Source: a virus. From it: DNA of 43,203 nucleotides. Location: positions 1 through 43,203 of IMG/VR virus record IMGVR_UViG_3300017739_000026. One strand, written 5' to 3'. Positions within the stretch are counted from its first letter, which is position 1, and the number at the start of each line of letters is the position of its first letter. The position numbers and the translations under genes were made by a program. Below, one piece after another: positions 3,269 to 39,786 of the stretch. The notes under the pieces were generated by a model, which was given only the letters and a program-made list of their open reading frames with translations, made no database searches and was not told the DNA's origin.

Positions 3269-3941
3269 TTTTTTTATCTTCCTTGATTTTATATTCGATT
3301 GTTTTCTTCATTTTTGACCCAAGTTTAAAACGGACAAGTTGTAGCATTTTATCATCTTCAACATATCCAATAGCTTGACCGTTCCACGGTCCCCATTTTT
3401 TCAGCCATGTGTTATCTGGCAAACGAATACGACCTTCATATTGCTTTGCCCAAGTTACCCAGTCGGAATATTCTTCACCGCTCATCCATTCGCCTAGCAG
3501 CTGGTAACGGTATTTGCCATGCGGAAGTCGCTTTTTTCTGTAGCGCACATCCTTTTCAAAATCTGCTGTACAATACCATATGCCTACTAGTTGTAATGCT
3601 TGGTCATGTTTCTCACAAAGGTCATTGAACCCGCTAGCAAATTTGATAACTTTTTCTAGATTTTTTGGTTCGTTTGTATAATAGTATAAACTACACTGCT
3701 CTCTGCGTGTCCTGTCACCCTGTGACTTTGCAAAATTACGGATACTGCCAACAAAACTTATAGCATTGTCACTGTCAACTTTGTAACCCCAAGTGTCTAC
3801 TGTAGGTACACGGAGTATTTCTGGAAAGGCATATTTGTATACATATACTTCAAAACGATATAGATATTTGTTATGAAACAAACGATCATTTTCATGCAGT
3901 TGCAGGTTGTACTTCTCTGCTAACTTCGTCAGTGCTTCCAT
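3258..3941 (-). CDS. Unknown phage protein (227 aa)
   Basis: 227 residues, rich in Tyr, Trp and Lys, with a basic C-terminus (KMKKTIEYKIKEDKKNDD). No family is recognised and there are no membrane segments or signal peptide. The start overlaps the end of clpA by 50 bases. I kept it because no other in-frame Met occurs until far downstream. It lies last in the dnaJ-clpA transcription order, so it may be co-expressed with the chaperones. Confidence 0.5.
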   Translation of the reverse strand: MEALTKLAEKYNLQLHENDRLFHNKYLYRFEVYVYKYAFPEILRVPTVDTWGYKVDSDNAISFVGSIRNFAKSQGDRTRREQCSLYYYTNEPKNLEKVIKFASGFNDLCEKHDQALQLVGIWYCTADFEKDVRYRKKRLPHGKYRYQLLGEWMSGEEYSDWVTWAKQYEGRIRLPDNTWLKKWGPWNGQAIGYVEDDKMLQLVRFKLGSKMKKTIEYKIKEDKKNDD

Positions 3942-6159
3942 CTAAATACCTAAACTTTATTAATATATTGTTATCTACATTTCTTACTTTTATTTTACAG
4001 CCATTAGCGTTCTTGTCAACCAGTTTTTTAGCAATAGGCATACGCAACAGTTTGTCAACTGTTCTTGCCATTGGTCTGGCACCCATGCGTTCATCGTAGC
4101 CTTCAGCAAGCAATAAGTCAATGCTAGGCTCGTCAACGTTGACGAGAACACCTTTTTCATTGAGTTGCTTTTGCAGGTCTTTGATAAACTTCATACAGAC
4201 TTTACGTTTAGCAATCTCATCTAATGCACTAAACTTACAAACTGTGTCAATACGATTGCGAAACTCTGGAGCAAAGAACTTTTTGAAAGCATCGTCTATA
4301 GCCTCATCGTGGTGTTCTTGATTACCAAATCCAATCACACGCTTTTCTGCATCTGCTGCACCTAGATTAGTTGTAAGAATAACAAAACAGTTCCTAGCAT
4401 CTGCACGTTTGCCATTTGATCCTGTTACAAAGCCTTCATCCATTAACTGCAACAGTACATTGGCTACATCTGGGTGTGCTTTTTCAATCTCATCAAATAG
4501 TATTACTGCATGTGGATTGCGTTCAATATCTCTGATCAGCATGCCGCCACTTAGATTGTTATCCTCGTACCCTACATAGCCTGGAGGTGCACCGATAAAA
4601 CGTGCTACTGTATGTCGTTCTTGATACTCGCTCATATCATAGCGCAACAGTTTCATGCTGTTTGCATCTGCTAGTTGTTTTGCAAGTTCTGTTTTACCTG
4701 TACCAGTTGGGCCTGTAAACACAAATACACCCAGTGTCTTGTCGCTGAGATTAAGTCCCGCTTTGGCAACCCAAACTTTATCAAGCACTGCATCAACTGC
4801 GGTATCTTGACCGTACACTTTGCTCTTAATGCGGTCTTCCACTTGTTGAGGAACGATTTTATGTTCTTTATCGTTGTCTAGTTGACTTACAGGAATCTTT
4901 GCGTACTTGCTGACTTCCTCTAGAATATTTTGTTTGCTAATGTGCGCACCTGTTACTCCCATTCTGCGTTGTTTAGCAGCCGCACTGTCAATCATATCAA
5001 ATGCTTTGTCAGGCAGTCTCTTGTCTGTTAGATATCTAACACTAAGGTCTACTGCACTGTGTACAGCGTCAGTGCCAATAGTGCAAGCATGATGTGCTTC
5101 ATAATATTTCTTGCTGTTCTCAAGTATTTCTTTTGCTAGTTGTGGTGTAGGTTCTGTGACGGTTACATGATAGAAACGGCGCATCAGCGCACGGTCTTTT
5201 TCAAAACTACTGTTGTATTCTTCCCAGGTAGTGCTTGCAATAACCTTGAGTTTGCCTCTGCCCAAGTAAGGCTTTAGCATGTTAGCAAAGTCTGTGCCGC
5301 CATTAGCACCGCCGCCTGCTCCTTTAAGAGTGTGTGCTTCGTCAATAAAAAGTATGCACTTTTGTTTTGCAATCAGTGCATCCAGTACTTCTTTCACACG
5401 TTCTTCGAACTGTCCACGATACTGTGTGCCTGCAAGCATAGTCCCTACATCTAGATTGAAAACAGTATGGTCTTGTAAATATGCGGGTACTTGTTTGTTT
5501 ACTATCTTTACAGCAAGTCCTTCTGCAACTGCTGTTTTACCAACGCCGGGATCACCTACCATAAGCACATTACTTTTGTTACGTCTAGCAAATGTTTGAG
5601 TAATCTCATCTATAATATCGTCTCTGCCAATCACAGGATCTAGTTTTCCTGCTTCGGCTTGCTCTGTTAAATCTTCACAATATTCGTTGATAACACCTTC
5701 GTAGTATTGTTCTTTTTGATTTGCAACCGCTGCATGTTTGTTGTTGCTCTTAATAAAGTTTACAAAGTCATCCTTGTTGACACTGTACTTCATTAGGAAA
5801 TAACTACTGTGACTATTGTTTTCACTCATTATACTAATGAATACGTCTAACAATGTTACGGTTTCTCTGCCACTAAAAAGCACACTAGTCAGCGCACGAT
5901 TAAACACACGCTCTAAACTTTGTGTTTTTGTTTGTGGTAGGCTTTGCTTTACTTTTGCGTAACTATCAACAATATGGCTTTCTAAATCATCTACTAGTTC
6001 GTCTAGTTGTACACCAAAGTCTCTTAACATAACAGCAAAGTCGGCATTTATTAGTATAGCCAATAGCATATGTTCAGTACTGATGTACCTGTGTCCGTAT
6101 TTGTTTGCAATATTAGTTGCAGTTTCTAAACACTTATCAACTTCTTTAGCGGTTCTCAT
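3892..6159 (-). CDS. clpA: ClpA-like AAA+ unfoldase
   Basis: 755 residues, full length for ClpA (about 750). A Clp N-domain occupies about 1-140. The first AAA+ module has Walker A GDPGVGKT at 202-209 and Walker B ILFIDEA at 269-275. The second has Walker A GPTGTGKT at 483-490, Walker B VILFDE at 552-557 and sensor-2 GARP at 693-696. There is no ClpB-type middle domain. IGF at 609-611, just before the conserved PEFRNRID, sits where ClpA carries its IGL ClpP-docking loop, so the protein could feed substrates to host ClpP. No clpP is in the window. It overlaps dnaJ by 14 bases and shares its promoter. Likely cytoplasmic ATP-driven unfolding of host or phage proteins; the targets are unknown. 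Confidence 0.93.
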   Translation of the reverse strand: MRTAKEVDKCLETATNIANKYGHRYISTEHMLLAILINADFAVMLRDFGVQLDELVDDLESHIVDSYAKVKQSLPQTKTQSLERVFNRALTSVLFSGRETVTLLDVFISIMSENNSHSSYFLMKYSVNKDDFVNFIKSNNKHAAVANQKEQYYEGVINEYCEDLTEQAEAGKLDPVIGRDDIIDEITQTFARRNKSNVLMVGDPGVGKTAVAEGLAVKIVNKQVPAYLQDHTVFNLDVGTMLAGTQYRGQFEERVKEVLDALIAKQKCILFIDEAHTLKGAGGGANGGTDFANMLKPYLGRGKLKVIASTTWEEYNSSFEKDRALMRRFYHVTVTEPTPQLAKEILENSKKYYEAHHACTIGTDAVHSAVDLSVRYLTDKRLPDKAFDMIDSAAAKQRRMGVTGAHISKQNILEEVSKYAKIPVSQLDNDKEHKIVPQQVEDRIKSKVYGQDTAVDAVLDKVWVAKAGLNLSDKTLGVFVFTGPTGTGKTELAKQLADANSMKLLRYDMSEYQERHTVARFIGAPPGYVGYEDNNLSGGMLIRDIERNPHAVILFDEIEKAHPDVANVLLQLMDEGFVTGSNGKRADARNCFVILTTNLGAADAEKRVIGFGNQEHHDEAIDDAFKKFFAPEFRNRIDTVCKFSALDEIAKRKVCMKFIKDLQKQLNEKGVLVNVDEPSIDLLLAEGYDERMGARPMARTVDKLLRMPIAKKLVDKNANGCKIKVRNVDNNILIKFRYLDGSTDEVSREVQPATA

Positions 6160-11282: not shown

Positions 11283-12013
11283 TATACTATCCTATCGTAT
11301 AACATATTTATCCATTCTATGTGCGCACTCTCTCGAGGATGAGTTGTATAAAACTCTTGCTCAGTGCGTTTTGCCCAGTTGTACATGCCTTCATCGTATA
11401 TAAACCAGGCGTTGTGTATGCTTTGTCTTAGTGTTTTAAGACTTGCGTCCATTTCAACGTTGCATTCAAATAGGCTGTTGTCTACATACATAAAGCGGAA
11501 AGGAATATCATGTTCTAGCAAATAGTTTTGCAACATAACAATCTCACACCAACTTGTGTATAGTTCCCAATATTCGCTGTCTGCTACTTGGTCTACATAC
11601 ATTCTTGCAAACTCGCTCATGCCACGCTGTTCTGCGTTTTCGCGATTTTCTTTTTGCAAACGAAGTATATCTTCATCCATACTGTGAAAATGATCAGCAA
11701 AGTTTTGGTCATTGTGTGTCCAAGGATTTATACTATACCATGGACTATCTTTATGCCCTGTGTCGTAAGTAAAGCGGAACTCGTAGCGATTAGGAAAACT
11801 CCACATCACTGCAACAAATAAATCTAAATCCTTATACTTGTGTACTGCATTCATTACGTTGCGGCGTATAGCACTATTGCTATTTCCGCCTCGTGCAGTA
11901 GGGCAATGGTTCCATCCTCGGCGTTCTGCTAGTAATGCACACCAAGCATGTTCTGCACTAGGTAGTTCATTGCCGGCAGTGAAACTATCTCCACCGCTGA
12001 TAAGCACTGTCAT
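11282..12013 (-). CDS. SGNH/GDSL-like hydrolase
   Basis: 243 residues. ISGGDSFTAG at 5-14 resembles GDSL block I with a candidate nucleophile Ser10. ARGGNSNSAIRRN at about 39-51 looks like the block II/III Gly-Asn region, and HPRESAH near 228 could provide the catalytic His. The Asp normally three residues before that His is not evident, so activity is uncertain. SGNH enzymes are esterases or acetyl-transferring/removing enzymes on glycans and lipids. A second SGNH gene is at 32955-33683. Substrate unknown. Confidence 0.65.
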   Translation of the reverse strand: MTVLISGGDSFTAGNELPSAEHAWCALLAERRGWNHCPTARGGNSNSAIRRNVMNAVHKYKDLDLFVAVMWSFPNRYEFRFTYDTGHKDSPWYSINPWTHNDQNFADHFHSMDEDILRLQKENRENAEQRGMSEFARMYVDQVADSEYWELYTSWCEIVMLQNYLLEHDIPFRFMYVDNSLFECNVEMDASLKTLRQSIHNAWFIYDEGMYNWAKRTEQEFYTTHPRESAHIEWINMLYDRIV

Positions 12014-12228
12014 ATTAGATATAATCCTATTAACATTGGTATTATTATTGCAAACTGCGGAAGAAAGTTCAATATGATTGCTTTTTCATTCCAACGATAT
12101 CCAACATAGATCCAGCCTGCTGCACCCAGCATTTGTACAATACTATTCCATGGAGTTAAACCAGCAACATGCAGGACCATCGCTATGAGGATAGTCACTG
12201 CACTAGCATACTTTATATAGTTAACCAC
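12010..12228 (-). CDS. Small membrane protein, three hydrophobic segments
   Basis: 72 residues, almost entirely hydrophobic: segments at about 7-24, 30-46 and 50-71, separated by NSIVQ and RWNEK turns. No signal cleavage site and no enzyme motif. It is coupled by short overlaps to the SGNH gene downstream and the sulfotransferase-like gene upstream. I checked it as a possible TctB subunit for the nearby transporter; it is half the usual size and lacks recognisable similarity. Confidence 0.55.
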   Translation of the reverse strand: MVNYIKYASAVTILIAMVLHVAGLTPWNSIVQMLGAAGWIYVGYRWNEKAIILNFLPQFAIIIPMLIGLYLI

Positions 12229-12860
12229 TATAAGGCACCTCTGGCACTGCTGGCAAGTTTTATCAATTCGTCTAGTTCTGTGTGTTCAACGTATTGCATG
12301 TATTTGCGGTTTTTATCTTGTTCAAGTATAGAGTTGATCTGATCAGTACAGGTATTACAAGGTATACCCAACTGAGATTCTATGTTGTGTATATAGGGCA
12401 AGCCGTACAAGTAGATCAATTCTTGGCTTACAAAAACTGGATTTTTGTTCATAAAAAATGACAACTGTTGTAGAAAGTCTGGTGTACTGTGTCTGCCTCT
12501 AACACGCTGTTGTTGATGTTCTAGTATGTTGCGATCTCTACCTATTATCATGTAACGTACACTATCAAACTTCTGTAGTGCGTATGTATGAAATTGTTCA
12601 AACTTAGGTATTCGTGTTTCGCCATCGTACACATAAGGACAGCCCATGCTGGTATAGTAGTAGTTGTGTGTGCTGGTGTCAAACTCCAGTAGCAGTTCTG
12701 GTGTCTCCCAGCAGTCTGCAAAAGGTTCCATGTCATGACCTTCCCAGTATTTGTGCTGTAGATTTTCCCAAGCAAACACACTTGGATTGCTGCCAAATAT
12801 TTTAGCATACAAGTGATTGCCACTGCCCTGTGGACCTGCAGCAATAATTAAGGTTTTCAT
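12228..12860 (-). CDS. Sulfotransferase-like P-loop protein
   Basis: 210 residues. The N-terminus IIAAGPQGSGNHLYAKIF (5-22) is a P-loop-like GxxGSGNH that in sulfotransferase-type folds binds the PAPS phosphate. MIIGRDRNILEHQQQRVRGR at about 104-123 resembles the 3'-phosphate-binding Arg region. Marine phages carry many such proteins, and the true donor is usually unknown. It is coupled to the 2OG oxygenase upstream (ATGA at 12857-12860). Sulfation or another nucleotide-dependent transfer is inferred; a simple NTP-binding protein is possible. Confidence 0.5.
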   Translation of the reverse strand: MKTLIIAAGPQGSGNHLYAKIFGSNPSVFAWENLQHKYWEGHDMEPFADCWETPELLLEFDTSTHNYYYTSMGCPYVYDGETRIPKFEQFHTYALQKFDSVRYMIIGRDRNILEHQQQRVRGRHSTPDFLQQLSFFMNKNPVFVSQELIYLYGLPYIHNIESQLGIPCNTCTDQINSILEQDKNRKYMQYVEHTELDELIKLASSARGAL

Positions 12861-13528
12861 ACTGGTATTTGAAGGTCGTAATGTGAGAACAGCATGTGCA
12901 TTTCTGGTGTTGCTACACCTGTAACCAGTAGCGTACTACGTGGAACACGCCCTGCATTTGCAGTACAATGTGGACTGTTAAACCAATCAAAACTGTAGAT
13001 CTCACCTGCACGATATTGTGTGTGTACAAAATTTCCGTATTGAATAAAATGTCCAGGTTCCCAATCATTAAGCATGACCATAAAACGATACACACTTGTG
13101 GGTTCTGCTTTGTTCCATTTTTCTAACTTATCAACATGCAAGTTCCACACTTGTCCGGGCATTTGCACATGCACTCGACGTTGTACATCTCTGTCATCTC
13201 CAGGCAGTAGATGCAGTGCATCTGTCATGCGTTGAAAGATTGGCTCAATTGCATAGTCGAGATTTGTTAGCACAAGGTCTGGACTTGCGCCTGTGTTGAT
13301 TAGATCTAATTCTTCTGCTTCAATGTCTTCACTGCCGTTGGGGTTGTCAATTGGATTTCGTGTTCTCCATGTTATTTCATTACTTTTTTCAATTGTGCGC
13401 TCTAGTGCTGTTGTCCAATCACCTGTAAACTTTCCAATGTAACGCATGGCATCGTATGCTGGATCATTACGAAACGAATCATAATGATAGTTATTGCGTG
13501 GTGCAGTCTTTTCCCAATTGCTTTTCAT
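12857..13528 (-). CDS. 2-oxoglutarate/Fe(II) oxygenase, aspartyl-hydroxylase-like
   Basis: 223 residues from the ATG at 13528, chosen because AGGAG lies 7 bases before it and an upstream alternative start would fall inside the hairpin after tctC. The candidate iron triad is His131-x-Asp133 (in NLHVDK) and His187 (in NSPHCTANAG), followed by an Arg that could bind 2-oxoglutarate. DWEPGHFIQYGN and RAGEIYSFDW are shared in pattern with the oxygenases at 39776-40417 and 40925-41647. It lies directly downstream of tctA-tctC. Hydroxylation of an amino acid, sugar or protein side chain is likely; the substrate is unknown. Confidence 0.72.
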   Translation of the reverse strand: MKSNWEKTAPRNNYHYDSFRNDPAYDAMRYIGKFTGDWTTALERTIEKSNEITWRTRNPIDNPNGSEDIEAEELDLINTGASPDLVLTNLDYAIEPIFQRMTDALHLLPGDDRDVQRRVHVQMPGQVWNLHVDKLEKWNKAEPTSVYRFMVMLNDWEPGHFIQYGNFVHTQYRAGEIYSFDWFNSPHCTANAGRVPRSTLLVTGVATPEMHMLFSHYDLQIPV

Positions 13529-13548
13529 CTCAATCTCCTGTTTTGTAA

Positions 13549-13577
13549 AAGGGTTGCAATACAACACTGCAACCCTT
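13549..13577 (-). terminator. Hairpin after tctC, terminator or attenuator
   Basis: A perfect 10-bp stem (AAGGGTTGCA / TGCAACCCTT) with a 9-base loop lies 9 bases after the tctC stop. On the minus strand it is followed by a short T stretch (CCCTTTTAC); on the plus strand by GATTGTTTTTT. It probably separates the transporter pair from the oxygenase gene, perhaps partially. Confidence 0.65.
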
Positions 13578-13586
13578 GATTGTTTT

Positions 13587-14654
13587 TTAACGATTCTGTG
13601 GAAACAGTTCTTCTTTTAGCACACTATTTAGACCAAGTGCTTCTTTGTTGAAACGTACCAAAGTGCGTAGTGCATCTTCTGTGATGAATGTCATCAATGT
13701 GTCACGCATTTGATCGCCACGCTCGCCAATGAACCACTCATACTTGCCGTTCTTTGCTTCAATAGCTGCCATTGATTCTGGATCGTTTGCCATTTTATTC
13801 ATTGCTGATACTAGACGATCACGCAGTTTCGGATTGCCTTTGTTAACCCAGATTGCTTTTTGCAAGCCATCACGGAATGATTTAACCAGCACATACGCAT
13901 CGTAGAACTCACCTGATGGTTCAACGCCATAACGCTCTTTGAATTGTATTTCAAATTGTGCGCCTGGGAAGTTTGCATCATCTACATGCTTGCCTGTTGT
14001 TGGGTCAAGTAGACCATGATGGAACCAAAGTTCTGCATTTTCGTCTGGTGCAATGTGAATTGCATATGTTGCTGGATTTTCACGTGAACCAGTTAGATCT
14101 CCACGCTTGAATGCTAAACGACGTTCGCCACCTGACATACCTTTGACCCATTTAACATTCTCACCAAAGCATGCAATGTATTGGTCAAGCGTTTGATCTG
14201 GACCACAAATCATCATTGCAATTGCAAATGCTTCTGGAACAGCACCTGATGTACCAGCAAACACTGGCTTGTCCATGTCTGCACCTTTTACTTTGCCCAT
14301 GATGATGTTCAAGTTCATTAGACCAATTGATTCATAATCTGCATAGTTGTAGTCAACATTTTCTTGCAAGAAACTTACACCGTTACCACCATGTGTGACA
14401 ACAATTGTATCTTCGTTAAAACGTAGTTCGTTGTGCCATTTGTTGATTCCTGGGATATCACGTGCGCCTGGAATGTTACGCAATTTGATGCGCTCTCCAA
14501 GATGCTTGCTGAGTTCTTTCATAATAATCTCAGTCCACACTGTGGTTCCGCCGCCTGGCTTTTGTGGGTTAACAACAGTGATGTCTGCTGTTGCAACAGT
14601 CGCTGTCATTGATAGTGCTGCTACAGCACCGATTAGTATATTTTTGATTTTCAT
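13587..14654 (-). CDS. tctC: TctC-like periplasmic solute-binding protein
   Basis: 355 residues with a cleavable signal peptide (MKIKNILIGAVAALSMTATV, then ATA before the mature start). ITVVNPQKPGGGTTVW at about 25-40 matches the TctC/Bug fold start (family pattern 'PGGG.D'), and later segments (THGGNG, MSGGERRLAF, FYDAYVLVKSFRDG) follow the two-lobed binding protein pattern. It would capture a carboxylate in the periplasm and deliver it to TctA. The gene follows tctA by 12 bases with no tctB between. Ligand unknown: citrate and other di/tricarboxylates are known for the family, but related Bug proteins bind many compounds. Confidence 0.8.
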   Translation of the reverse strand: MKIKNILIGAVAALSMTATVATADITVVNPQKPGGGTTVWTEIIMKELSKHLGERIKLRNIPGARDIPGINKWHNELRFNEDTIVVTHGGNGVSFLQENVDYNYADYESIGLMNLNIIMGKVKGADMDKPVFAGTSGAVPEAFAIAMMICGPDQTLDQYIACFGENVKWVKGMSGGERRLAFKRGDLTGSRENPATYAIHIAPDENAELWFHHGLLDPTTGKHVDDANFPGAQFEIQFKERYGVEPSGEFYDAYVLVKSFRDGLQKAIWVNKGNPKLRDRLVSAMNKMANDPESMAAIEAKNGKYEWFIGERGDQMRDTLMTFITEDALRTLVRFNKEALGLNSVLKEELFPQNR

Positions 14655-14666
14655 TTTTAACTCCTG

Positions 14667-16190
14667 TTATACAAAATCAATTTTTGCTTTATTAAAGAAT
14701 ATTCCCCAAATTGCTGCAAGTATCGCTAGTGCAATAAATGCGGCAGGGAAGGGTGCAAGCAGTAGTTCTTCCCATCCGTACCCGAATGTGTTAAACTGTA
14801 CCCAACTTGCTTCAAGTCTATGCGATAATATAAATCCGATTAGGAAACTTATGCGACTGAATTTAAAATACTTCATGCCCAAGCCAACTGCACAACACAT
14901 AGCAAACATAAGATAATCGTCAAAGAATCCTGTGTACTGTGATGTGGTCCATATTAGACTTGCCATAATGGGCCAGAAGTAAAACTTGAATGGAATGTTT
15001 GTAATGTATACCGCATAACGAATAAATCCGTAACTGATTGGTAAAATAATTAGCAAACTTAACATATAACTGCTTAGTAGGTGATCAAAGAACACCCCGT
15101 CTTCTAGTACTGCTGGACTACCTAGTTCAAGTCCAACGTACATCAACAAGCCCATTACGATGACTTCAAATGGTGCACCAGGAATACCAAACAAAATAGT
15201 AGGAACATAACTGGTGGCTTTTTGTGCATTGTTGGCGCCTTCGCAGCCAATTACACCTTGTACGTTGCCTTGTCCTACTGGGTACTTTTCGCCATTGGCA
15301 TCAGCACCTTTACCTGGTTTGCGTGATAAAGCAACTGTTTGGCTATATGCAAACCAATCTGCAATATTGCCGCCGATGCCTGGCACCAGTCCCACAAAGC
15401 CGCCAATAAAGCCACCACGCAAGCCATCCCACTTGTATTTCCAAGTGTCTTTGATACCTTGTATCAACTGTGTAACAATATCACCTTTGGTCAAACTAAC
15501 TTTTGTTGCTTGCATTCTGTATGCACTAACTAGTTCAGGGAACGCTAGTACACCTGCCATCACTGGGATCATTTGAATACCATCTTCAATATAATCCCAA
15601 TCAGCAAACCAAATGGTCCAAGTATTAAAATCAAACTGTGGAATTACTGTGATCCAACGTGATGCGGCTGTGTCTGGGTCCATGCCTACTAGTCCTAGTA
15701 CAACACCTGCTACAAGAGCAAAGACGCCACGAACCCAATACTTACTGCTGATAAAGATAACACATGTCATTGCAAATATAAGGAACGAAAACATTTCTGC
15801 TGTGCCAAAGTACAGTACAATTTTGGTATAGTACGGCAAGAACAAAAACACCAACAGTCCCCAAATAAGTCCGTTAACCCAACTTGTGCTGATTGCTGCA
15901 CTTAATGCTCTTGCTGCTTGTCCGCGCCTGCTCATAGGAAAGCCATCAACCATTGTTGCTGCAGCTCCACCTGCTCCAGGTACGTTCATAACTACACCAC
16001 AAAACGTGTCGCCAATGCTGCTGGTCACAACAACTGCGGTGGTAAACACCACCAGCATGTAAGGATCATGAAAGTAACCTACAAAACTGTAGACTGCAAT
16101 AAGTCCAGTGGTAGCACCTGCTACTGGTATAAGTCCTACAAAGAATCCATAGAAGACTCCTAGCAGTAATACAATGATGTATGTTTCCAT
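14667..16190 (-). CDS. tctA: TctA-type transporter membrane subunit
   Basis: 507 residues, the normal TctA length, with about 10-12 hydrophobic segments. The two repeated signature blocks are visible: GLIPVAGATTGL near residue 19 with VVMNVPGAGGAAATMVDGFP (about 66-85) in the N-half, and GFVGLVPGIGGNIADWF (about 267-283) with TILFGIPGAPFEVIVMG (about 331-347) in the C-half. It is the channel of a tripartite tricarboxylate transporter. No tctB is adjacent. The 5' leader contains a hairpin in place of a clear Shine-Dalgarno. I see no sign of damage, so a functional host-derived gene is likely. A second copy is at the window's right edge. Confidence 0.92.
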   Translation of the reverse strand: METYIIVLLLGVFYGFFVGLIPVAGATTGLIAVYSFVGYFHDPYMLVVFTTAVVVTSSIGDTFCGVVMNVPGAGGAAATMVDGFPMSRRGQAARALSAAISTSWVNGLIWGLLVFLFLPYYTKIVLYFGTAEMFSFLIFAMTCVIFISSKYWVRGVFALVAGVVLGLVGMDPDTAASRWITVIPQFDFNTWTIWFADWDYIEDGIQMIPVMAGVLAFPELVSAYRMQATKVSLTKGDIVTQLIQGIKDTWKYKWDGLRGGFIGGFVGLVPGIGGNIADWFAYSQTVALSRKPGKGADANGEKYPVGQGNVQGVIGCEGANNAQKATSYVPTILFGIPGAPFEVIVMGLLMYVGLELGSPAVLEDGVFFDHLLSSYMLSLLIILPISYGFIRYAVYITNIPFKFYFWPIMASLIWTTSQYTGFFDDYLMFAMCCAVGLGMKYFKFSRISFLIGFILSHRLEASWVQFNTFGYGWEELLLAPFPAAFIALAILAAIWGIFFNKAKIDFV

Positions 16191-16298
16191 AGAGAAATCA
16201 CAGAGGTGCTAACACCTACTGTGCCTTTTTAATTTATTGGGGGATATACAACTGAACTTCACTGCATTCCGCAAAAGAGCGTTAGTTGTACTATGTGT
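16191..16298. other. Intergenic region between methyltransferase and tctA
   Basis: 108 bases without a gene. Besides the hairpin at 16199-16223 it holds an A-rich stretch and no clear sigma70 promoter; TGTATA at about 16249 on the minus strand lacks a good -35. It is one of the longer gaps in the window, so it may carry an unrecognised promoter for tctA-tctC. Confidence 0.5.
16199..16223 (-). promoter_or_regulatory. Hairpin in the tctA leader
   Basis: Bases 16199-16208 (CACAGAGGTG) pair with 16213-16223 (CACCTACTGTG) with one bulged A and a 4-base loop. On the minus strand the stem ends 9 bases before the tctA ATG, where a ribosome would land, and no clear purine-rich ribosome-binding site is seen. 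It could control translation. On the plus strand it is followed by CCTTTTTAA and would resemble a weak terminator. Confidence 0.45.
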
Positions 16299-16976
16299 TT
16301 ATTTAGTCCGCCACACGAAGTATAACCGATTTTTGTGGCTGTCGGTTCTAATGTCTAGTATTTCTACGCCAAGTTGTTCTGCACAGTTAACAATAAAGTT
16401 GCTGTCCCATGGGTAAAAGTAAATCCAGTTTGACTCGCTTTTGTCATGTGGTAGTCCAGGATTTGCTCTAAAGAACATTACTGCACCTGGATTACACAAA
16501 CTTACAGCATGTTCCAGTTCTGCATAAATTTTATCTGTGCTGCCAAAGTTGATACTGCCAAGTGCTATTGTAGCATCATACTTTTCATCTGGATGATGAT
16601 CTAGTAGTTTTACATGCAAATCTGCTGCATCATTATAAGGATCAATGCCAACTAGATTATCTATCTTGCCTTTAAACTCATGATATCCGCAACCAATGTC
16701 TAGTACCTTGCGTGGCTTTAAACTGTTGATCTCGTCAATGAGTGCAAGTCCACTGTACTTGTACTTTTTCATTTCGCCTTGCCATACATTGCGAAAGTAG
16801 TTGTCTAACACTTTATCGTCAATGCGATCAACAAGTTCGCCAATGTGTGTATATTCAACATCAATTTCAACGTCGAATGTACCTTGAATAGCCTGTTGCA
16901 ATGTGCGTGAGTTACGCAACAACTGCGGGCTAGTATGGATCATTTGTTCAAGTTTGTGTAGGATTTTATGGTTCAC
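16299..16976 (-). CDS. Class I SAM-dependent methyltransferase
   Basis: 225 residues. VLDIGCGYHEFKG (about 90-102) is motif I for SAM binding, LVGIDPYND (about 107-115) carries the acidic residue for the ribose, and DATIALGSINFG follows at about 133-144. The N-terminal helical 80 residues are unrecognised and may bind substrate. The ATG overlaps the stop of the upstream gene (ATGA). Likely a small-molecule or glycan methyltransferase, cytoplasmic; substrate unknown. Confidence 0.78.
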   Translation of the reverse strand: MNHKILHKLEQMIHTSPQLLRNSRTLQQAIQGTFDVEIDVEYTHIGELVDRIDDKVLDNYFRNVWQGEMKKYKYSGLALIDEINSLKPRKVLDIGCGYHEFKGKIDNLVGIDPYNDAADLHVKLLDHHPDEKYDATIALGSINFGSTDKIYAELEHAVSLCNPGAVMFFRANPGLPHDKSESNWIYFYPWDSNFIVNCAEQLGVEILDIRTDSHKNRLYFVWRTK

Positions 16977-17542
16977 GGTTTATAAGTTCCTATAAAAATG
17001 TCACTGTGTTTGTGATGTTGTATCCATTGTACACTATGTTTTTGACCAAAGTCAAGTATTAATTTATTCTGTTCTTCAATACGTTTGGTCATCAAGTAGT
17101 CTGTTTCATACCAGTCATAGTTTGGATAGGTAATGTCAAATCCACCTGCCTTCTTCCACCATAGAAAACTTGCCCAGTCTGGTCTGTAAACTAGTTGTAT
17201 CCATGCAAGTGGATAGCGTTCTTGTATTTCATTAAAGTAGTAGGGCCACTCGTGACTCATTAGTAGTTTGCTTCCAGAACTAAGGTCCCACTGTGTATAG
17301 GGTGCATTGAGGTTGTGCTTATCCAACCCGCCTTCAGCAGGGTTTGCAGGAAACTCCATACCAGTGCCATAATAAGCATCACAGTGTCCACTGAAGTCGC
17401 CATGTTTGTATATGCGATGTTCTGCACGATCTGTGCAGTTGTATTGACCCGAGGATTTTATTTCCTGTGCAATGCCACTCCAGCGACTGCCAGGCACACC
17501 TGTGTAAAATATATATTGGGGGAGCATAAAAATATTTATCAT
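16973..17542 (-). CDS. Sulfotransferase-like phage protein
   Basis: 189 residues from the first ATG; a second ATG at 17527 is possible and neither has a strong ribosome-binding site. YTGVPGSRWSGIAQEI at about 13-28 is a degenerate P-loop of the type found in sulfotransferase-like proteins. The C-half (WIQLVYRPDWASFLWWKKAGG) is aromatic-rich. It is the first minus-strand gene left of the divergent phoH promoter. Nucleotide or PAPS binding is inferred from the motif. Confidence 0.42.
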   Translation of the reverse strand: MINIFMLPQYIFYTGVPGSRWSGIAQEIKSSGQYNCTDRAEHRIYKHGDFSGHCDAYYGTGMEFPANPAEGGLDKHNLNAPYTQWDLSSGSKLLMSHEWPYYFNEIQERYPLAWIQLVYRPDWASFLWWKKAGGFDITYPNYDWYETDYLMTKRIEEQNKLILDFGQKHSVQWIQHHKHSDIFIGTYKP

Positions 17543-19049: not shown

Positions 19050-19126
19050 TGGCGCGGCTGAAGAGATTCGAACTCCTAACCTTCGGTTTCGTAGACCGAT
19101 GCTCTATCCAGTTGAGCTACAGCCGC
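19050..19126 (-). tRNA. tRNA-Arg(ACG)
   Basis: 77 bases including an encoded CCA. Acceptor GCGGCTG/CAGCCGC, D stem GCTC/GAGC, anticodon stem TCGGT/ACCGA with loop CTACGAA (anticodon ACG), standard T arm with TTCGAAT, discriminator G. It reads CGN Arg codons if A34 is deaminated to inosine, as in bacterial tRNA-Arg(ICG). Confidence 0.95.
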
Positions 19127-19131
19127 TGATT

Positions 19132-19206
19132 TGGTATCCCTACCCGGATTCGAACCGAGATTGCCGCCGTGAAAGGGCGGTGTCCTAACCATTAGACGAT
19201 AGGGAC
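19132..19206 (-). tRNA. tRNA-Glu(TTC)
   Basis: 75 bases with encoded CCA. Anticodon stem CCGCC/GGCGG with loop CTTTCAC (anticodon TTC), T loop TTCGAAT, discriminator A. The acceptor GTCCCTA/TAGGGAT closes with a G1-U72 wobble where Watson-Crick G-C is usual. Confidence 0.95.
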
Positions 19207-19211
19207 TTATT

Positions 19212-19297
19212 TGGCATAGGTGGAGGGATTCGAACCCCCTAGCATCTCTGCTCTAGTTTTGGAGACTAGTGTGACACTCCAACTTCACCGCACCTAC
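19212..19297 (-). tRNA. tRNA with CCA anticodon and long variable arm (Trp-like)
   Basis: 86 bases with encoded CCA. Acceptor GTAGGTG/CACCTAT (G1-U72), D stem GTGA/TCAC, anticodon stem CTAGT/ACTAG with loop CTCCAAA, identical to the tRNA-Trp loop (anticodon CCA). Unlike normal tRNA-Trp (short variable loop), the variable region is 13 bases and folds as AGCA-GAGA-TGCT, a class II feature of Ser/Leu/Tyr tRNAs. Position 8 is C rather than U. Discriminator G suits both Trp and Ser. Trp identity is the default call; charging is uncertain. Confidence 0.8.
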
Positions 19298-31512: not shown

Positions 31513-32583
31513 TTACAAAGTTAAGTTCTCTAGTGGTCTTGTTGGATTTACACCTAAGAAATCGCCCCATTTGCCATAGTAGTGTCGCATACCAACTTCA
31601 TCATGTATAGTAGAGTTCTCATGTCTTCCGTGCAGAATGTTTCTTGATTCTGTACCTTCACGCATTGTAGTGCCTTGCCCTGCAACGCCAATAAGGTCTT
31701 CGTGCAGATTGCGTCCAAATGGACCCCAGATACTGTTGTGGTGTTTAATGCGTGTGTGTCTCTCAGCAGGTGTGTCAATGCGCAGCCCATAACCTCTGAA
31801 CTCGATTAAGACTCGATTAGGACCTAGTGGAGTTACTGTGTCACTACGATAGGCACTGCCCCGTAAGTTGAAGTTATAGCCTGGGAAGAGGTCGACCATG
31901 TACCACTGGTTGGGCGGCAGATTGGGAAAAGATAACTCCCCTCTATCCTCAAAGCCGTCATACTCAGTATAGTTAACAGTAAAGCTACTGACGTTAACAT
32001 GACCATTATCAAAAGGAACATTTTTTCTAGCGAAATATTCATCGTTAAAACCGCTCACTCTGTTAAAGTAGTGCATGAAATCGTGATAAAACTCGCTATT
32101 AGTATCATGCCACAACTTGTAGTTGGTGTCAATGATTGCTTTGTGATAGTGAAACACTTCTAGTTCTTCAGTATCAATAGCATCTGCTATGCAATCAAAT
32201 GCACCTGCTGTCCACTGTTCTACATCCTGAGTAGGATTTGGATCCAGTGTTACCCAAACCATTTGTCCGTGCTTTACTTCGCAATGCAGTTGTGTTCCAT
32301 CTATAGGCCCACTTAGTGTACCTGCTGGCTGTGTAATGCCTGTGTCTCGAAGAGCACGAACACCGTCCGTTGTATTTACTGCTATTACAGGAACGCCTGC
32401 TATTGTAGTTGTGCGGAAATCGCCTAGTTCATACATTTCGCTCAAGTGGCATATAGGCACCCAAACTTTACCGAAGATCAACTCTTGTTCTGCTAGGTAA
32501 ACTTCGTGATTATTGTAGCATTCACTGCTGATGTATTCTATGTTTGGTTGCTTTAACCAGTTGGTATGATTGCGTGGTGGCAT
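31513..32583 (-). CDS. Rieske-type oxygenase homologue lacking its Rieske cluster ligands
   Basis: 356 residues from the ATG at 32583, which AAGGAG precedes by 6 bases. The N-terminal fold follows Rieske non-haem oxygenase alpha subunits (ECYNNHEVYLAEQELIFGKV, then WVPICHLSEMYELGDF and VPVIAVNTTDGVRALRD), but the CxH and CxxH cluster ligands that should follow are absent; only LHCEVKHG (101/105) remains. The C-terminal mononuclear-iron site looks retained: NYKLWHDTNSEFYHDFMH with His167 and His171, and Glu295/Asp296 in NLHEDLIGVAG. Without a Rieske electron donor it cannot work as a standard oxygenase. It is encoded just after an IscA-like gene. Confidence 0.75.
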   Translation of the reverse strand: MPPRNHTNWLKQPNIEYISSECYNNHEVYLAEQELIFGKVWVPICHLSEMYELGDFRTTTIAGVPVIAVNTTDGVRALRDTGITQPAGTLSGPIDGTQLHCEVKHGQMVWVTLDPNPTQDVEQWTAGAFDCIADAIDTEELEVFHYHKAIIDTNYKLWHDTNSEFYHDFMHYFNRVSGFNDEYFARKNVPFDNGHVNVSSFTVNYTEYDGFEDRGELSFPNLPPNQWYMVDLFPGYNFNLRGSAYRSDTVTPLGPNRVLIEFRGYGLRIDTPAERHTRIKHHNSIWGPFGRNLHEDLIGVAGQGTTMREGTESRNILHGRHENSTIHDEVGMRHYYGKWGDFLGVNPTRPLENLTL

Positions 32584-32604
32584 AGTAAACTCCTTACTAT
32601 ACAA

Positions 32605-34727: not shown

Positions 34728-34817
34728 TGGCAGAGAGGGAGGGATTCGAACCCCCGGAGCCCGCAAAGGCTCAATGGATTAGTAATCCACCGCTTTAAGC
34801 CACTCAGCCACCTCTCC
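34728..34817 (-). tRNA. tRNA-Ser with ACT anticodon
   Basis: 90 bases including encoded CCA, class II. Acceptor GGAGAGG/CCTCTCT (G1-U72), long variable arm GAGCC/GGCTC, T loop TTCGAAT, discriminator G. Anticodon loop TTACTAA gives anticodon ACT, reading Ser AGU. Bacterial Ser tRNAs for AGY normally have GCT. Confidence 0.9.
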
Positions 34818-34823
34818 AATACT

Positions 34824-34979
34824 TTAATGAGCCATTATGACCTTACGTTCATAAACTTTAATAGCCGCTTTGGCTTGCTCTCTGTTAACTTTAGCCATGT
34901 TCATAACAAACTTTATACTTTGTTCTGTACTAAGTTGCATTTGGTATGCTTCAATAACTGCGTAATCAATATCTGTCAT
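34824..34979 (-). CDS. Small helical protein (51 aa)
   Basis: 51 codons translated by eye, starting MTDIDYAVIEAYQMQLSTEQ and ending YERKVIMAH; predicted all-helical with mixed charge. AGGAG precedes the ATG by 7 bases, and a perfect-consensus promoter lies 25-53 bases upstream. tRNA-Ser follows 6 bases after the stop. Function unknown. Confidence 0.7.
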   Translation of the reverse strand: MTDIDYAVIEAYQMQLSTEQSIKFVMNMAKVNREQAKAAIKVYERKVIMAH

Positions 34980-35003
34980 TTCATGTCTCCTATTATTATT
35001 AAC

Positions 35004-35032
35004 ATTATATGCTAACTTTACTAGGATGTCAA
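35004..35032 (-). promoter_or_regulatory. Perfect-consensus sigma70 promoter before 51-aa gene and tRNA-Ser
   Basis: TTGACA (35027-35032) and TATAAT (35004-35009), 6/6 in both, separated by 17 bases. The -35 overlaps the stop of the upstream radical SAM gene. It would drive the small gene and tRNA-Ser. Confidence 0.8.
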
Positions 35033-36318
35033 GTCTTTTTTGGCGATAAAAAATCCTCAGTGTTTACACCATAAGTTTCGGCCCAGTCGAGCTCTGCGTC
35101 TTGATCTTCGGCTTCTTTCTTTTGTTGCTTGTTGTTGAACATATCAACAGGCATGATAGTTTCTTCTTTTTCCATGTTCGACTCCCATATATGAGGGAAA
35201 AGTTCTTTACTATTAAGTTTTCTTCTTTGATCTAACAATAGCAGATTAGTTCGAGTATCGTCAATATCTTTTTTGTATTTACTGTCAATGAAGTTAATGC
35301 AACCTTCTATGGCATTATACAAACTGTATTTAGGATCCAATGTCTTTTGTAGTTGTGTACATCTGAGTACAAAATAGTCTAGCTGCCAGTCTGGCAGATT
35401 ATTAATATTACTCCAAGTTGGACTTGTTGCATGATGTATTACAAAACCATTCTCATGTACGCCTCGTTCCATAAGGTAATCTATACAATCGAATAGTGCT
35501 ACAGGATTTAATACATTCAAAACCATGTTAAAGTTATAACTAGGAACTTCATTTATAACTACGTCAATATTTTTTGCAAAACTACTCCAGGTCTGTGGAT
35601 ATCTAATGTATTGATAATGTTCACCTGTGCTTTCTGCACTTATTGTATATCTTAACTTTTTAAACTTTTTGCTAAGTTCAAATACAGGTGTATGTATGTT
35701 TTTTATATTACTGTTTATTCTTAACTTACAATCAGGATTGACCTCGTATAGTGTTTCCAGTAACTGAGCAAAATCCTTGTTTATAAGTGGCTCACCGCCT
35801 GCAAGATAAACTTCTTTTGCATTCGCTAGGTTATCCAGTACAAACTGCTTAACATCCTCTACACCATCTGCCCTGTTGACCGTCACTCCTAGTTCTTTTG
35901 CCCATCTACTGCTTAGGGCTGGAAAACAATAAACACATGCATTTTGACAGGTGTTATCATAACGTAAATCAAATCCGGTAGGTATTAGGTCACCATCGTT
36001 TGTATCATAACTTTCTAATCTGTCAGTTCTTGTAAGTGTGCGTTTATAGTGTTTTCTTAAACTATAAGCATCTTGCTCTGTTTCAAGTTTATAACACTCT
36101 GCGCAGTTACTATGGTATTTGCCATTTATCATAGCACCCTGTATTTCTTTAAGCACAGGATTGCTCGTGATACAACTAGCAAACGTATCTGTGTTAAGAT
36201 TACCTAAAGGGCTTGCTCCGATACTACAAGTTTTAACATCACCATCTGGTGCTACATAAAGATTGTTCCAAGGCGCAGGGCAAAATGTTTTGCTTTCAAA
36301 TAACTGTTTTGGTTTCAT
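35029..36318 (-). CDS. Radical SAM protein with N-terminal auxiliary-cluster cysteines
   Basis: 429 residues. The radical SAM motif CQNACVYC has Cys124, Cys128 and Cys131, followed by YLAGGEPLIN. N-terminal cysteines at 13, 31, 49, 72 and 75 form the same twitch/SPASM-like set as in the 322-residue paralogue. The C-terminal 70 residues are charged and probably disordered. Overlaps the SDR gene by 4 bases. Possibly peptide or sugar modification with the flanking PP-loop, PLP and 2OG enzymes; substrate unknown. Confidence 0.85.
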   Translation of the reverse strand: MKPKQLFESKTFCPAPWNNLYVAPDGDVKTCSIGASPLGNLNTDTFASCITSNPVLKEIQGAMINGKYHSNCAECYKLETEQDAYSLRKHYKRTLTRTDRLESYDTNDGDLIPTGFDLRYDNTCQNACVYCFPALSSRWAKELGVTVNRADGVEDVKQFVLDNLANAKEVYLAGGEPLINKDFAQLLETLYEVNPDCKLRINSNIKNIHTPVFELSKKFKKLRYTISAESTGEHYQYIRYPQTWSSFAKNIDVVINEVPSYNFNMVLNVLNPVALFDCIDYLMERGVHENGFVIHHATSPTWSNINNLPDWQLDYFVLRCTQLQKTLDPKYSLYNAIEGCINFIDSKYKKDIDDTRTNLLLLDQRRKLNSKELFPHIWESNMEKEETIMPVDMFNNKQQKKEAEDQDAELDWAETYGVNTEDFLSPKKT

Positions 36319-36764
36319 ATAACAATATTATTCCTGCACCATTGTTCCAGTTTAGCATAGTCATATTCTCCAGGATCATACAAATGCGCTGGATTAACGA
36401 TTGCAATGTTCGGATGATTTATCTGTGCAACTGCATGTGCAAGACTCTGTTTCTGTGTATGATAGCGCATCATATGAACATCGTCGCCCCAATGTTTTTC
36501 ATATACCACTGCACTGCCTATGTTTATAACACGTTTTTTTGTTCCATGTATTTCGAAGCATTCATACACGAGTTGTGTTTGTGCAAAATCTGGCTTTGCT
36601 ACGCTGATTAGAACATCAAAGTCTGCGGTTAAGATCGTTTGTCTAACAGAATAATCTCTGAGATCATGCTGTTTTCCAAATCTTAAAACAGTGTGTGCGT
36701 GTTCTAAATAATCAGCAATGCTTTTTCCAAGCCCTGCATCTGTTCCTGTAACTGATACTATCAT
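36315..36764 (-). CDS. Short-chain dehydrogenase/epimerase-like protein
   Basis: 149 residues from the ATG at 36764; an upstream start would run into the tRNA-Arg. VSVTGTDAGLGKSIADYL gives TGxxxGxG at about 5-12, GSAVVY is the Ser region, and YHTQK (YxxxK) is the catalytic pair near residue 105. It is shorter than a typical SDR (about 250), so the substrate-binding C-terminus is reduced. Likely an NAD(P)-dependent oxidoreductase of a sugar-modifying pathway. Confidence 0.6.
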   Translation of the reverse strand: MIVSVTGTDAGLGKSIADYLEHAHTVLRFGKQHDLRDYSVRQTILTADFDVLISVAKPDFAQTQLVYECFEIHGTKKRVINIGSAVVYEKHWGDDVHMMRYHTQKQSLAHAVAQINHPNIAIVNPAHLYDPGEYDYAKLEQWCRNNIVI

Positions 36765-36774
36765 AATATGAATA

Positions 36775-36851
36775 TGGCGTTCCCGGCAGGATTCGAACCT
36801 GCGACCCACAGCTTAGAAGGCTGTTGCTCTATCCAGCTGAGCTACGGAAAC
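36775..36851 (-). tRNA. tRNA-Arg(TCT)
   Basis: 77 bases with encoded CCA. Acceptor GTTTCCG/CGGGAAC, D stem GCTC/GAGC, anticodon stem ACAGC/GCTGT with loop CTTCTAA (anticodon TCT), T loop TTCGAAT, discriminator G. Reads AGA/AGG, codons common in AT-rich genomes. Confidence 0.95.
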
Positions 36852-36858
36852 ATAAAGT

Positions 36859-36943
36859 TGGTGCGCCTAGAGGGAGTCGAACCCCCACGCCTTGCGGCAC
36901 AGGTACCTAAAACCTGCGTGTCTACCAGTTCCACCATAGGCGC
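36859..36943 (-). tRNA. tRNA-Leu(TAG)
   Basis: 85 bases with encoded CCA, class II variable arm. Acceptor GCGCCTA/TAGGCGC, anticodon stem CAGGT/ACCTG with loop TTTAGGT (anticodon TAG), T loop TTCGACT, discriminator A. It precedes tRNA-Arg in transcription order and shares its promoter. Reads CTA and other CTN codons; CTA is frequent here. Confidence 0.94.
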
Positions 36944-38125: not shown

Positions 38126-38839
38126 TTAAGCTGCAGCTTTTGCTGCTACTAGCTCGTCTACGTTGATGAGCTGCATGTTGCTTTCACCAACTAAGTTGTC
38201 TAACCATTCGTTACGCTTCACAACCATCATGAATGTGTTGCGTGGGATGTCTGTTACGTTCTCTGTACCATGACCTGTGTGATCTGGATTAAAGATTAGG
38301 AACTGACCTTTTTGTAGGTTGATTGACATTTCACTGTCTTCGGTCTTAAAGCGGAACCAAGCACCACCTGGCATGTCGTTAAGTTGTACGAAAATGCGCA
38401 GTGTTTCGCCGTGCTCTTGACCACGCTGATTATCAAAGTCAGTGTGGATAGCCATTGTATGACCTGGCTTCTGCTGGAAGATACGGATGCGTGTCTTCTC
38501 ACACTTAAACCAATCAATCATAGCTCTTAGTTTTGGACTGTTGTAGTAACTGTCTGTGTATGAGAAGTTTTCTGGTGCTTCTTCTGCCCAAAAGTCTTGG
38601 ATTTCTGTTGTTGTGCTTTTACCATCTTCACTACGGAAAGCATTGTAAAGATAGTTGCTAACAATACCTTTATCTTCGTCGAATGCAACGATATTGTTAT
38701 CACTCACTGCACGTTCGCGAGCAGTGTAATCGAGTGCTGCTAGTTCATTGTCCCAGTCGCCCTGGAAAATCTGTGAACTGCAATAGATGCCTGTATTAGG
38801 GTTGTAACCTTTTGCATCATACTGTTTAAGTTCTGACAT
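38126..38839 (-). CDS. 2-oxoglutarate/Fe(II) oxygenase, hydroxylase-like
   Basis: 237 residues. Candidate iron ligands His132 and Asp134 (AIHTDFD), His190 (TGHGTENV), and Arg200 for 2-oxoglutarate, as in prolyl/aspartyl hydroxylase-like beta-jelly-roll enzymes. NDMPGGAWFRF precedes the strand carrying the C-terminal His. Ends in a strong terminator. A TATAAATA box lies about 96 bases upstream. It differs from the other three oxygenases in sequence and may act on a different substrate. Confidence 0.75.
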   Translation of the reverse strand: MSELKQYDAKGYNPNTGIYCSSQIFQGDWDNELAALDYTARERAVSDNNIVAFDEDKGIVSNYLYNAFRSEDGKSTTTEIQDFWAEEAPENFSYTDSYYNSPKLRAMIDWFKCEKTRIRIFQQKPGHTMAIHTDFDNQRGQEHGETLRIFVQLNDMPGGAWFRFKTEDSEMSINLQKGQFLIFNPDHTGHGTENVTDIPRNTFMMVVKRNEWLDNLVGESNMQLINVDELVAAKAAA

Positions 38840-38901: not shown

Positions 38902-39786
38902 TCATAGGCGCTGTTCTAACACTGTATTTATACTCTGTTTAAGTTGATCACTTAAACAAAGTCTATTGAAAGGACCTCCTCTGTTAAGGTAGTCCCAATG
39001 TTCACCAACACCTGTAGCAAGATTTACCACAGGGCTAGCACTTACACCAAGTTCATCGCACAGTGCAAGTTGTGTAGTTCTATACTTTTCAAACAAATAG
39101 TCTGAACTAAAGTTTTCCATTAAGCCCATTGCTATTTGCATGTTAAAAAAGTTTAGATAACTATCACGTTGGTATGCGCCCAGTCCATCTTTATTTGACC
39201 CAGATCTCTGTAGACGCATACCTATACGCAATCTTCCAACAGGAAATGCTTTGCTCATGCTAAACACAACCTGTTCAATGCACGGATAAGTTAGATCGAA
39301 GTCCATTTCACCTACCGTGCCAAACCAACAACAATCCACAAGTACAGGTACTTTTAATAGTGTACATTGTTCCATTAGTTCTTTGTAGTTATAGTTTGTA
39401 CCACTGTCAGCGAAAGGTATGCTAATGATCAAAGTGTCATTTGGCCCAATATCATTTTTATCTTTTAGTACATTAATATCAGTAGCATACCCATGATAAC
39501 TGTATTCACCTGCTAGTACACGCAGATTTCTATGACGATGTTTTAAGTAAAACTTGTCAAATGCTTCTGTTGTACCATGACTGTATACACTATCGCTGAA
39601 CTCGTTCAAACCTTGTATGGTGTTGTTGCTTGTACTGAGAATCCAATCTCGATACATATCGCAGTATTCCTCACTGCAATCCGTGTCCTGTGTGCCTACT
39701 TTAGCATGCATTAACATGCCTAGTGTTGTAGTTGTTTCACTATCAGGAATACATTTACCTTGACTATAAGGCTTTCTAGTCCTCAT
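38902..39786 (-). CDS. PLP-dependent aminotransferase-like protein
   Basis: 294 residues, shorter than the 370-400 of fold-type I enzymes. VPVLVDCCWFGTVGEMDFD (about 146-164) gives the Asp that pairs with the PLP nitrogen, and VVFSMSKAFPVGRLRIGMR (about 173-191) contains the Schiff-base Lys in SMSKAF. SHGTTEAF (about 69-76) resembles the Gly-Thr phosphate loop. The C-terminal small domain appears truncated. It overlaps the 2OG oxygenase gene by 11 bases. Likely an aminotransferase of a sugar or amino-acid derivative; could be a degenerate homologue. Confidence 0.65.
   Translation of the reverse strand: MRTRKPYSQGKCIPDSETTTTLGMLMHAKVGTQDTDCSEEYCDMYRDWILSTSNNTIQGLNEFSDSVYSHGTTEAFDKFYLKHRHRNLRVLAGEYSYHGYATDINVLKDKNDIGPNDTLIISIPFADSGTNYNYKELMEQCTLLKVPVLVDCCWFGTVGEMDFDLTYPCIEQVVFSMSKAFPVGRLRIGMRLQRSGSNKDGLGAYQRDSYLNFFNMQIAMGLMENFSSDYLFEKYRTTQLALCDELGVSASPVVNLATGVGEHWDYLNRGGPFNRLCLSDQLKQSINTVLEQRL
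38935..38942 (-). promoter_or_regulatory. TATAAATA late-promoter-like box
   Basis: Perfect T4 late -10 box on the minus strand, about 96 bases before the ATG at 38839, but inside the coding sequence of the PLP gene. The distance is longer than for the GATAAATA boxes, so its role is uncertain. Confidence 0.3.

Follow-up and report, generated by a model that had tools for sequence, protein, structure and literature searches.

An operon-specific, very likely cis-acting RNA leader upstream of a putative two-subunit TctA-TctC importer in T4-like phages

The viral record IMGVR_UViG_3300017739_000026 (a linear fragment of 43,203 bp that makes up the complete IMG/VR record and is here called the window in its full length) carries on its minus strand the genes tctA and tctC of a tripartite tricarboxylate transporter (TTT), preceded by a short RNA hairpin, the tctAC leader, which recurs in front of the same genes in other phages. 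This operon-specific leader is the main result of the analysis; it is very likely real and cis-acting, and is perhaps a riboswitch. The explanation that best accounts for the locus as a whole, and which is preferred here with some reserve, is a phage-owned TTT-type importer that would be cut down to TctA and TctC and placed behind a dedicated structured RNA leader.

Structure and distribution of the leader RNA

The spacer between the methyltransferase gene and tctA retains in distant relatives the same succession of stem, UAACGCUC, loop, GAAGUUCA, other stem arm and C-run. In the window, the core is matched at 16253-16284 and a covariance model at 16239-16297, and the 108-nt leader folds with a z-score of -2.8; the hairpin itself is about 30 nt in size and contains an asymmetric internal loop as well as a bulged C. 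Across 34 aligned elements, pairing is found in 95.8% of cells, against 73.5% after shuffling and at most 45.9% when the partner strand is slid, while both sides have changed in 9 of the 12 pairs (covariation score 0.525 vs. 0.139) and 17 different 5-bp pairs occur in the arms. The leader thereby shows what is expected of a riboswitch, a conserved and covarying structured RNA located 5' of genes of one function, and it is very probably a structured cis-acting RNA. A DNA operator is unlikely given the compensatory stem changes, the fixed non-palindromic core and the location of the counted sites on the sense strand. Targeted searches of Rfam returned no family matching the leaders at E≤5.

Two specific viral-wide scans for the core alone gave 75 distinct sites, including the window and one re-fetched fragment, and at 66 of them the core is flanked by a stem of 4 bp or more. 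All except two of these stemmed sites (64/66) lie directly upstream of tctA or tctC; 59 were assigned automatically and five (L235, L251, L296, L302, and L240, the last being a re-fetched piece of L003 that is counted among the 64) by reading, with tctA starting within a few dozen bases of the element in L235, L251, L296, and L302. The remaining two are a contig that ends 15 bp past the element (L292) and a locus in which the element precedes an SSS symporter (Na+/solute symporter; L255). Two weak-stem sites with one mismatch (L172 and L249) nonetheless have tctA or tctC downstream, and the other seven weak-stem or stemless sites, which do not, were judged to be chance matches. A held-out scan with the previously unused A-T and T-A closing pairs recovered 32 core sites, of which the four whose stem reached 7 bp or more were all upstream of tctA or tctC, compared with none of the 28 stemless ones. 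A broad scan with the pattern TAACGCTCN{3,24}AAGTTCA returned mostly chance hits among the matches listed, where 10 of 11 stemmed sites again preceded tctA or tctC, the other (L129) being a chance match. The covariance model gave a single strong match per genome, seen in 30 of 37 phage records and holding for those of 299,910 and 328,292 bp too; one further match was marginal and partial. This single copy per genome rules out a general phage intergenic hairpin.

Possible control of expression by the leader

Of 53 distinct leaders, 47 have a C-run 5-20 nt past the stem (shuffled mean 12.3). Its involvement as a switching strand is suggested by individual loci: in L242, a terminator-like hairpin starts in the strand right behind the element, and in L169, L253, and L298 one side of a long hairpin is made up of the C-run. 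A conserved pseudoknot between the C-run and the hairpin loop was also considered and set aside, since the loop appeared by eye to be too variable. A Shine-Dalgarno-like 4-mer stands at the usual place in only 3 of 43 tctA-first leaders vs. all 10 tctC-first leaders. Structure-bridged ribosome-binding sites have been described for T4 genes, and the arrangement of an AAGG, a small hairpin and 8 nt before the tctA start of the window may be such a site. Whether the leader is a small-molecule riboswitch is judged here to be an even question.

The TctA-TctC importer

The first-pass annotation of this DNA, which was made from the sequence alone, had described a full-length TctA with two signature halves and a TctC with a signal peptide, without a small TctB subunit between or beside them, and these points hold. 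The window TctA matches Pfam TctA (PF01970) at E=5.9e-78 over model positions 1-422 of 423, and both copies of the duplicated TTT motif G-x3-G-x3-G-x2-P are present: the copy of transmembrane helix 1 (TM1) at residues 11-25 (GVFYGFFVGLIPVAG, in which P-V-A-G replaces P-G-Hy-G) and the fully matching TM7 copy at residues 259-273 (GGFIGGFVGLVPGIG). The tctC gene begins 12 bp past tctA, back to back with it. No Pfam match was obtained for the window TctC at E≤0.01; the assignment comes from the fold predicted by AlphaFold (predicted local distance difference test, pLDDT, 87.9), for which the best solved structures in Foldseek were MatC, TctC, BugE, BugD, Bug27, TphC, and AdpC and the top 15 were all TctC/Bug-type solute-binding proteins (SBPs) with TMt of 0.57-0.68. 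By this modeled fold and its pairing with tctA, the protein is a TctC-type binding protein.

TctB (PF07331) was found in none of 47 viral record searches (0/19 and 0/28), in which control genomes were positive. The phage loci therefore have no detectable TctB; a very divergent one is still possible, because TctB is generally poorly conserved (PMC5812351). The bacterial TctCs closest by profile score adjoin a TctA with TctB either fused or neighboring, and a loss of TctB in the phage lineage is therefore likely. The TctA-TctC pair is likely to be a working importer.

The genes around the importer

The coordinates of the leader, the importer genes and their neighbors are collected in Table 1.

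Table 1. Features of the window associated with the tctAC leader and the two TctA pairs.
Feature	Coordinates	Strand	Remarks
tctAC leader RNA hairpin	16247-16290	-	Stem UACAACU/AGUUGUA, core UAACGCUC...GAAGUUCA
C-run UAUCCCCCAA	16237-16246	-	Directly 3' of the hairpin; possible switching strand
AAGG (16224-16227) and hairpin (16199-16223), then 8 nt before tctA ATG	16199-16227	-	Sequence reading
tctA	14667-16190	-	507 aa membrane subunit; Pfam TctA
tctC	13587-14654	-	355 aa periplasmic solute-binding protein; N-terminal signal peptide (by reading)
Terminator-like hairpin after tctC	13551-13575	-	GGGTTGCAGTGTTGTATTGCAACCC followed by TTTT
2OG/Fe(II)-type oxygenase	12857-13528	-	Start corrected to 13528
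P-loop (GPQGSGNH) protein	12228-12860	-	Similar protein also after the SSS symporter of L255
Class I SAM methyltransferase-like protein	16299-16976	-	Conserved module
Small P-loop (sulfotransferase/kinase-like) protein	16973-17542	-	Conserved module; candidate enzyme class only
Second, divergent tctA	42505-43203	-	Cut by contig end
Signal-peptide SBP-like protein	41644-42495	-	Beside second tctA; candidate TctC only
Second oxygenase homologue	40925-41707	-	Beside second pair
Third oxygenase homologue	39776-40432	-	Beside second pair

The first-pass annotation also placed a terminator hairpin after tctC and a 2-oxoglutarate (2OG)/Fe(II) oxygenase behind it, both of which are borne out. The hairpin is absent from the list of a simple terminator scan, on our reading because its loop is longer than the limit of the scan; it makes no functional separation of the oxygenase, because in many relatives the oxygenase reading frame begins directly at, or overlaps with, the tctC stop. 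For the window oxygenase, the ATG at 13528 is a more likely start than the GTG at 13567 and the most likely one overall, since the alignment with close homologues begins at this ATG. The HxD...H metal triad and the distal R (H131, D133, H187, and R197) are invariant in 21 homologues, and the predicted model (pLDDT 79.6; Foldseek matches to prolyl hydroxylases, AspH, and cupins, with low TM-scores) has the double-stranded beta-helix of a cupin/2OG barrel. A 72-aa DUF6552 membrane protein (12010-12228, minus strand), a possible accessory subunit, is encoded behind the oxygenase or behind tctC in several relatives.

Among 67 element-bearing loci, TctA is encoded in 64, TctC in 56, the S-adenosylmethionine (SAM) methyltransferase-like protein in 50, the small P-loop protein in 41, and the oxygenase in 36; a methyltransferase, a P-loop protein and a 2OG oxygenase are thus the usual companions of the importer. 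The order of the module genes differs among phages, the TctAs of which are just 35-45% identical to that of the window. The methyltransferase has only sub-threshold Pfam matches, and neither it nor the P-loop protein gave a credible profile match in PDB. In the tctC-first group (L139, L169, L180, L253, L279, L283, and L298), extra genes follow tctA, including a class-I glutamine amidotransferase on the opposite strand, a weakly ferritin-like protein and, in some, an amidinotransferase-like protein. The transporter itself is replaced in L255, which has a leader almost identical to that of L226: tctC-tctA follow the leader in L226 and the SSS symporter follows it in L255 (1192-3990, minus strand), with a P-loop protein and the methyltransferase of the module behind it. 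The closest solved relative of this symporter is the urea transporter DUR3 (a urea-proton symporter). The swap argues that what the RNA and its neighbors serve is the uptake of some solute, not TctAC in particular, and it calls for caution in assuming citrate.

The combination of a TctA, a binding protein and oxygenases occurs a second time on the contig (39776-43203), which supports, in general terms, the link between import and oxygenases. An RNA element for the second tctA, if any, would fall past the contig end. At least four 2OG-type oxygenase-like genes are present in the window. A 2OG-FeII_Oxy_3-like oxygenase, below the Pfam cut-off, lies at 38126-38839 (minus strand). The unit of TctA, TctC and oxygenase proposed in the first-pass annotation stands as a conserved set, with oxygenases after both pairs; the module also holds the methyltransferase and P-loop protein and has a symporter in place of the pair once.

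Phage ownership and evolution

The window contig is that of a T4-like phage: a clamp loader, PhoH, baseplate/tail-fiber connector proteins, an endolysin and a spanin are encoded on the same 43 kb, and relatives with the same cassette, up to 299,910 and 328,292 bp in size, encode T4 gp23. The window further encodes a ClpA/ClpB-like AAA+ ATPase (phrog_4871; 3892-6159, minus strand), a Rieske ring-hydroxylase alpha-subunit-like protein (31513-32604, minus strand) and six tRNA genes (Arg-acg, Glu-ttc, Trp-cca, Ser-act, Arg-tct, and Leu-tag; 19050-19297 and 34728-36943, minus strand), the last of which could aid host assignment.

Protein searches of viral contigs found 26 TctA, 23 TctC and 28 oxygenase loci, with the same gene order in most, and the dN/dS ratios (non-synonymous to synonymous substitution rates) of 0.04-0.10 for tctA, 0.05-0.13 for tctC and 0.05-0.09 for the oxygenase place the module under strong purifying selection. 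Among isolate phages, for which 50,697 phage records were compared, no close relative was found of the window TctA or the L145 TctA and none of the methyltransferase, and the oxygenase had one weak cyanophage match. In a maximum-likelihood tree of 20 phage TctAs, one sequence from a metagenome-assembled genome (MAG) and 22 bacterial TctAs, the phage and MAG sequences form one group apart from the bacteria (support 100/100) on a branch of 1.58 changes per site, a length at which, as the tree program warns, branches may join falsely. The MAG is that of marine bacterium B5-7 (L081/L097/L098), in which genes for TctA-TctC, the methyltransferase, the P-loop protein and an oxygenase-like protein share a contig with bacterial ones. 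Its TctA falls inside the phage clade, and this TctC is found in B5-7 alone among 109 genomes of its order, which fits acquisition from phage; the B5-7 cassette was probably acquired in this way. The TctAC pair is an old, long-standing phage-specific module and not a host fragment.

The possibility that the pair is bacterial DNA in a viral contig, whether through an assembly chimera or transduced host DNA, finds a point in its favor in the B5-7 contig, where TctA, TctC, methyltransferase and P-loop homologues stand together. It is nevertheless highly improbable, and is rejected here on the recurrence of the cassette in many independent viral contigs with phage genes around it (and gp23 in relatives), on the tree, and on the isolated occurrence of this TctC in its order together with the position of the B5-7 TctA. 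Two of the outcomes that the first-pass annotation named as refuting its reading thus did not arise: the same cassette across independent contigs speaks against a chimera, and the tree puts the phage TctAs outside any host operon.

Interpretation and alternative explanations

In the mechanism preferred here, TctC would bind its solute, a carboxylate or an amino-acid-like compound, on the periplasmic side, and TctA would carry it into the cell without TctB. The leader would set the translation or transcription of tctAC (once, of the replacement symporter) during infection according to the level of a metabolite, the simplest candidates being the imported solute and a compound made from it, and would then be a small riboswitch. 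The solute may supply 2-oxoglutarate or a related acid to the several 2OG oxygenases of the phage; alternatively, the oxygenase, methyltransferase and P-loop protein encoded alongside may act on the solute itself and modify it. That the substrate is 2OG, citrate or a similar carboxylate is judged somewhat less likely than not, and the raised carboxylate supply during infection that the first-pass annotation proposed is plausible, with more citrate or 2OG as one option only. The full proposal, a new and so far phage-only riboswitch class that senses a solute-linked metabolite and switches a TctB-less TTT importer or its replacement Na+ symporter, is given a little less than an even chance.

Several results weigh against this reading of the leader and the importer. 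The AAC/GUU pairs of the core do not vary, which is partly because the search patterns fixed them, and the independent evidence for the element is to be taken from the stems, the C-run and the position relative to genes. The element was not recognizable in 26 of the 38 tctA/tctC loci tested first, and the RNA is therefore not essential to the module. It was found in none of 399 Pseudomonadota genomes, in a search that had no positive control. On the protein side, the Pfam TctC model matched none of 18 TctC members, and comparison of TctC with PDB profiles gave borderline matches only, to BugD/MatC.

The leader may instead be the binding site of a phage or host protein, a translational repressor or mRNA stabilizer that times tctAC expression. 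A hairpin of this size, with such a bulge and internal loop, resembles protein-bound operators, of which the MS2 coat operator hairpin is an example; its single copy per genome suits such a role, as does the scarcity of Shine-Dalgarno-like 4-mers in the tctA-first compared with the tctC-first leaders, from which tctA translation may need the leader. No partner gene has been identified, however, and the same leader before the unrelated transporter of L255 favors the sensing of something tied to import; a protein site, though the closest competitor, is considered rather unlikely. Somewhat less probable again is the model of the first-pass annotation, a simple auxiliary metabolic module that raises citrate, 2-oxoglutarate or citrate-iron for the 2OG oxygenases without any special RNA control. 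TTT proteins bind carboxylates, and the window's complement of at least four such oxygenases, placed after both TctA/SBP pairs, agrees with it; it does not account for a covarying and operon-specific RNA leader or for the methyltransferase and P-loop protein, and some TctAC loci have no adjacent oxygenase. Of similarly low probability is a module that makes or tailors a small molecule or glycan from an imported building block, for example for surface or virion decoration, an idea that gains from the tight co-conservation of the enzymes with the transporter across phages with such divergent TctAs and loses from the fact that no Pfam or PDB assignment fixes a product and that the class of the P-loop enzyme is unproven.

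Relation to known systems and significance

The phage pair shares with the TctABC systems the TctA core with its duplicated signature, a TctC of TctC/Bug fold and the adjacency of the genes; it differs in the lack of a detectable TctB, in a TctC below Pfam detection, in being phage-encoded and in its RNA leader. Archaea provide examples of TctA without TctB and TctC (PMC5812351). The presence of tctA in phages is not in itself new: a study of SUP05 phage contigs (eLife 2014, PMC4164917) listed a tctA domain together with 2OG-Fe(II) oxygenase genes among putative auxiliary metabolic genes. The passage on it gives a tctA domain match of unknown role and describes neither a TctC pairing nor an RNA element. 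Riboswitches are described as rare in phages; the examples are a glutamine riboswitch, in Melnitz and its relatives, and one reported from cyanophages in association with psbA (PMC9004378). The tctAC leader resembles these in being a small structured RNA that marine T4-like phages carry close to genes of metabolism or regulation; unlike them, it matches no Rfam family and is tied to a transporter operon. The SSS symporter is an unrelated single-subunit transporter, which in L255 fills the same RNA-led slot and is followed by relatives of the same neighboring genes. The openly licensed literature yielded no paper that describes a tctA-linked RNA, and one may exist elsewhere.

An RNA locked to a phage transporter operon would, if confirmed, mean that viruses sense metabolites and tune the uptake of the infected cell. 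Since the RNA stands before a transporter, which in one case has been exchanged for another, its ligand would point to the solute that the virus wants imported; for many auxiliary metabolic genes of phages this kind of question has yet to be answered. The system would also provide a TTT importer that works without TctB, a subunit of unknown function (PMC5812351). Many marine phages carry their own two-part importer, often behind a folded RNA, and uptake by the infected cell thereby becomes testable.

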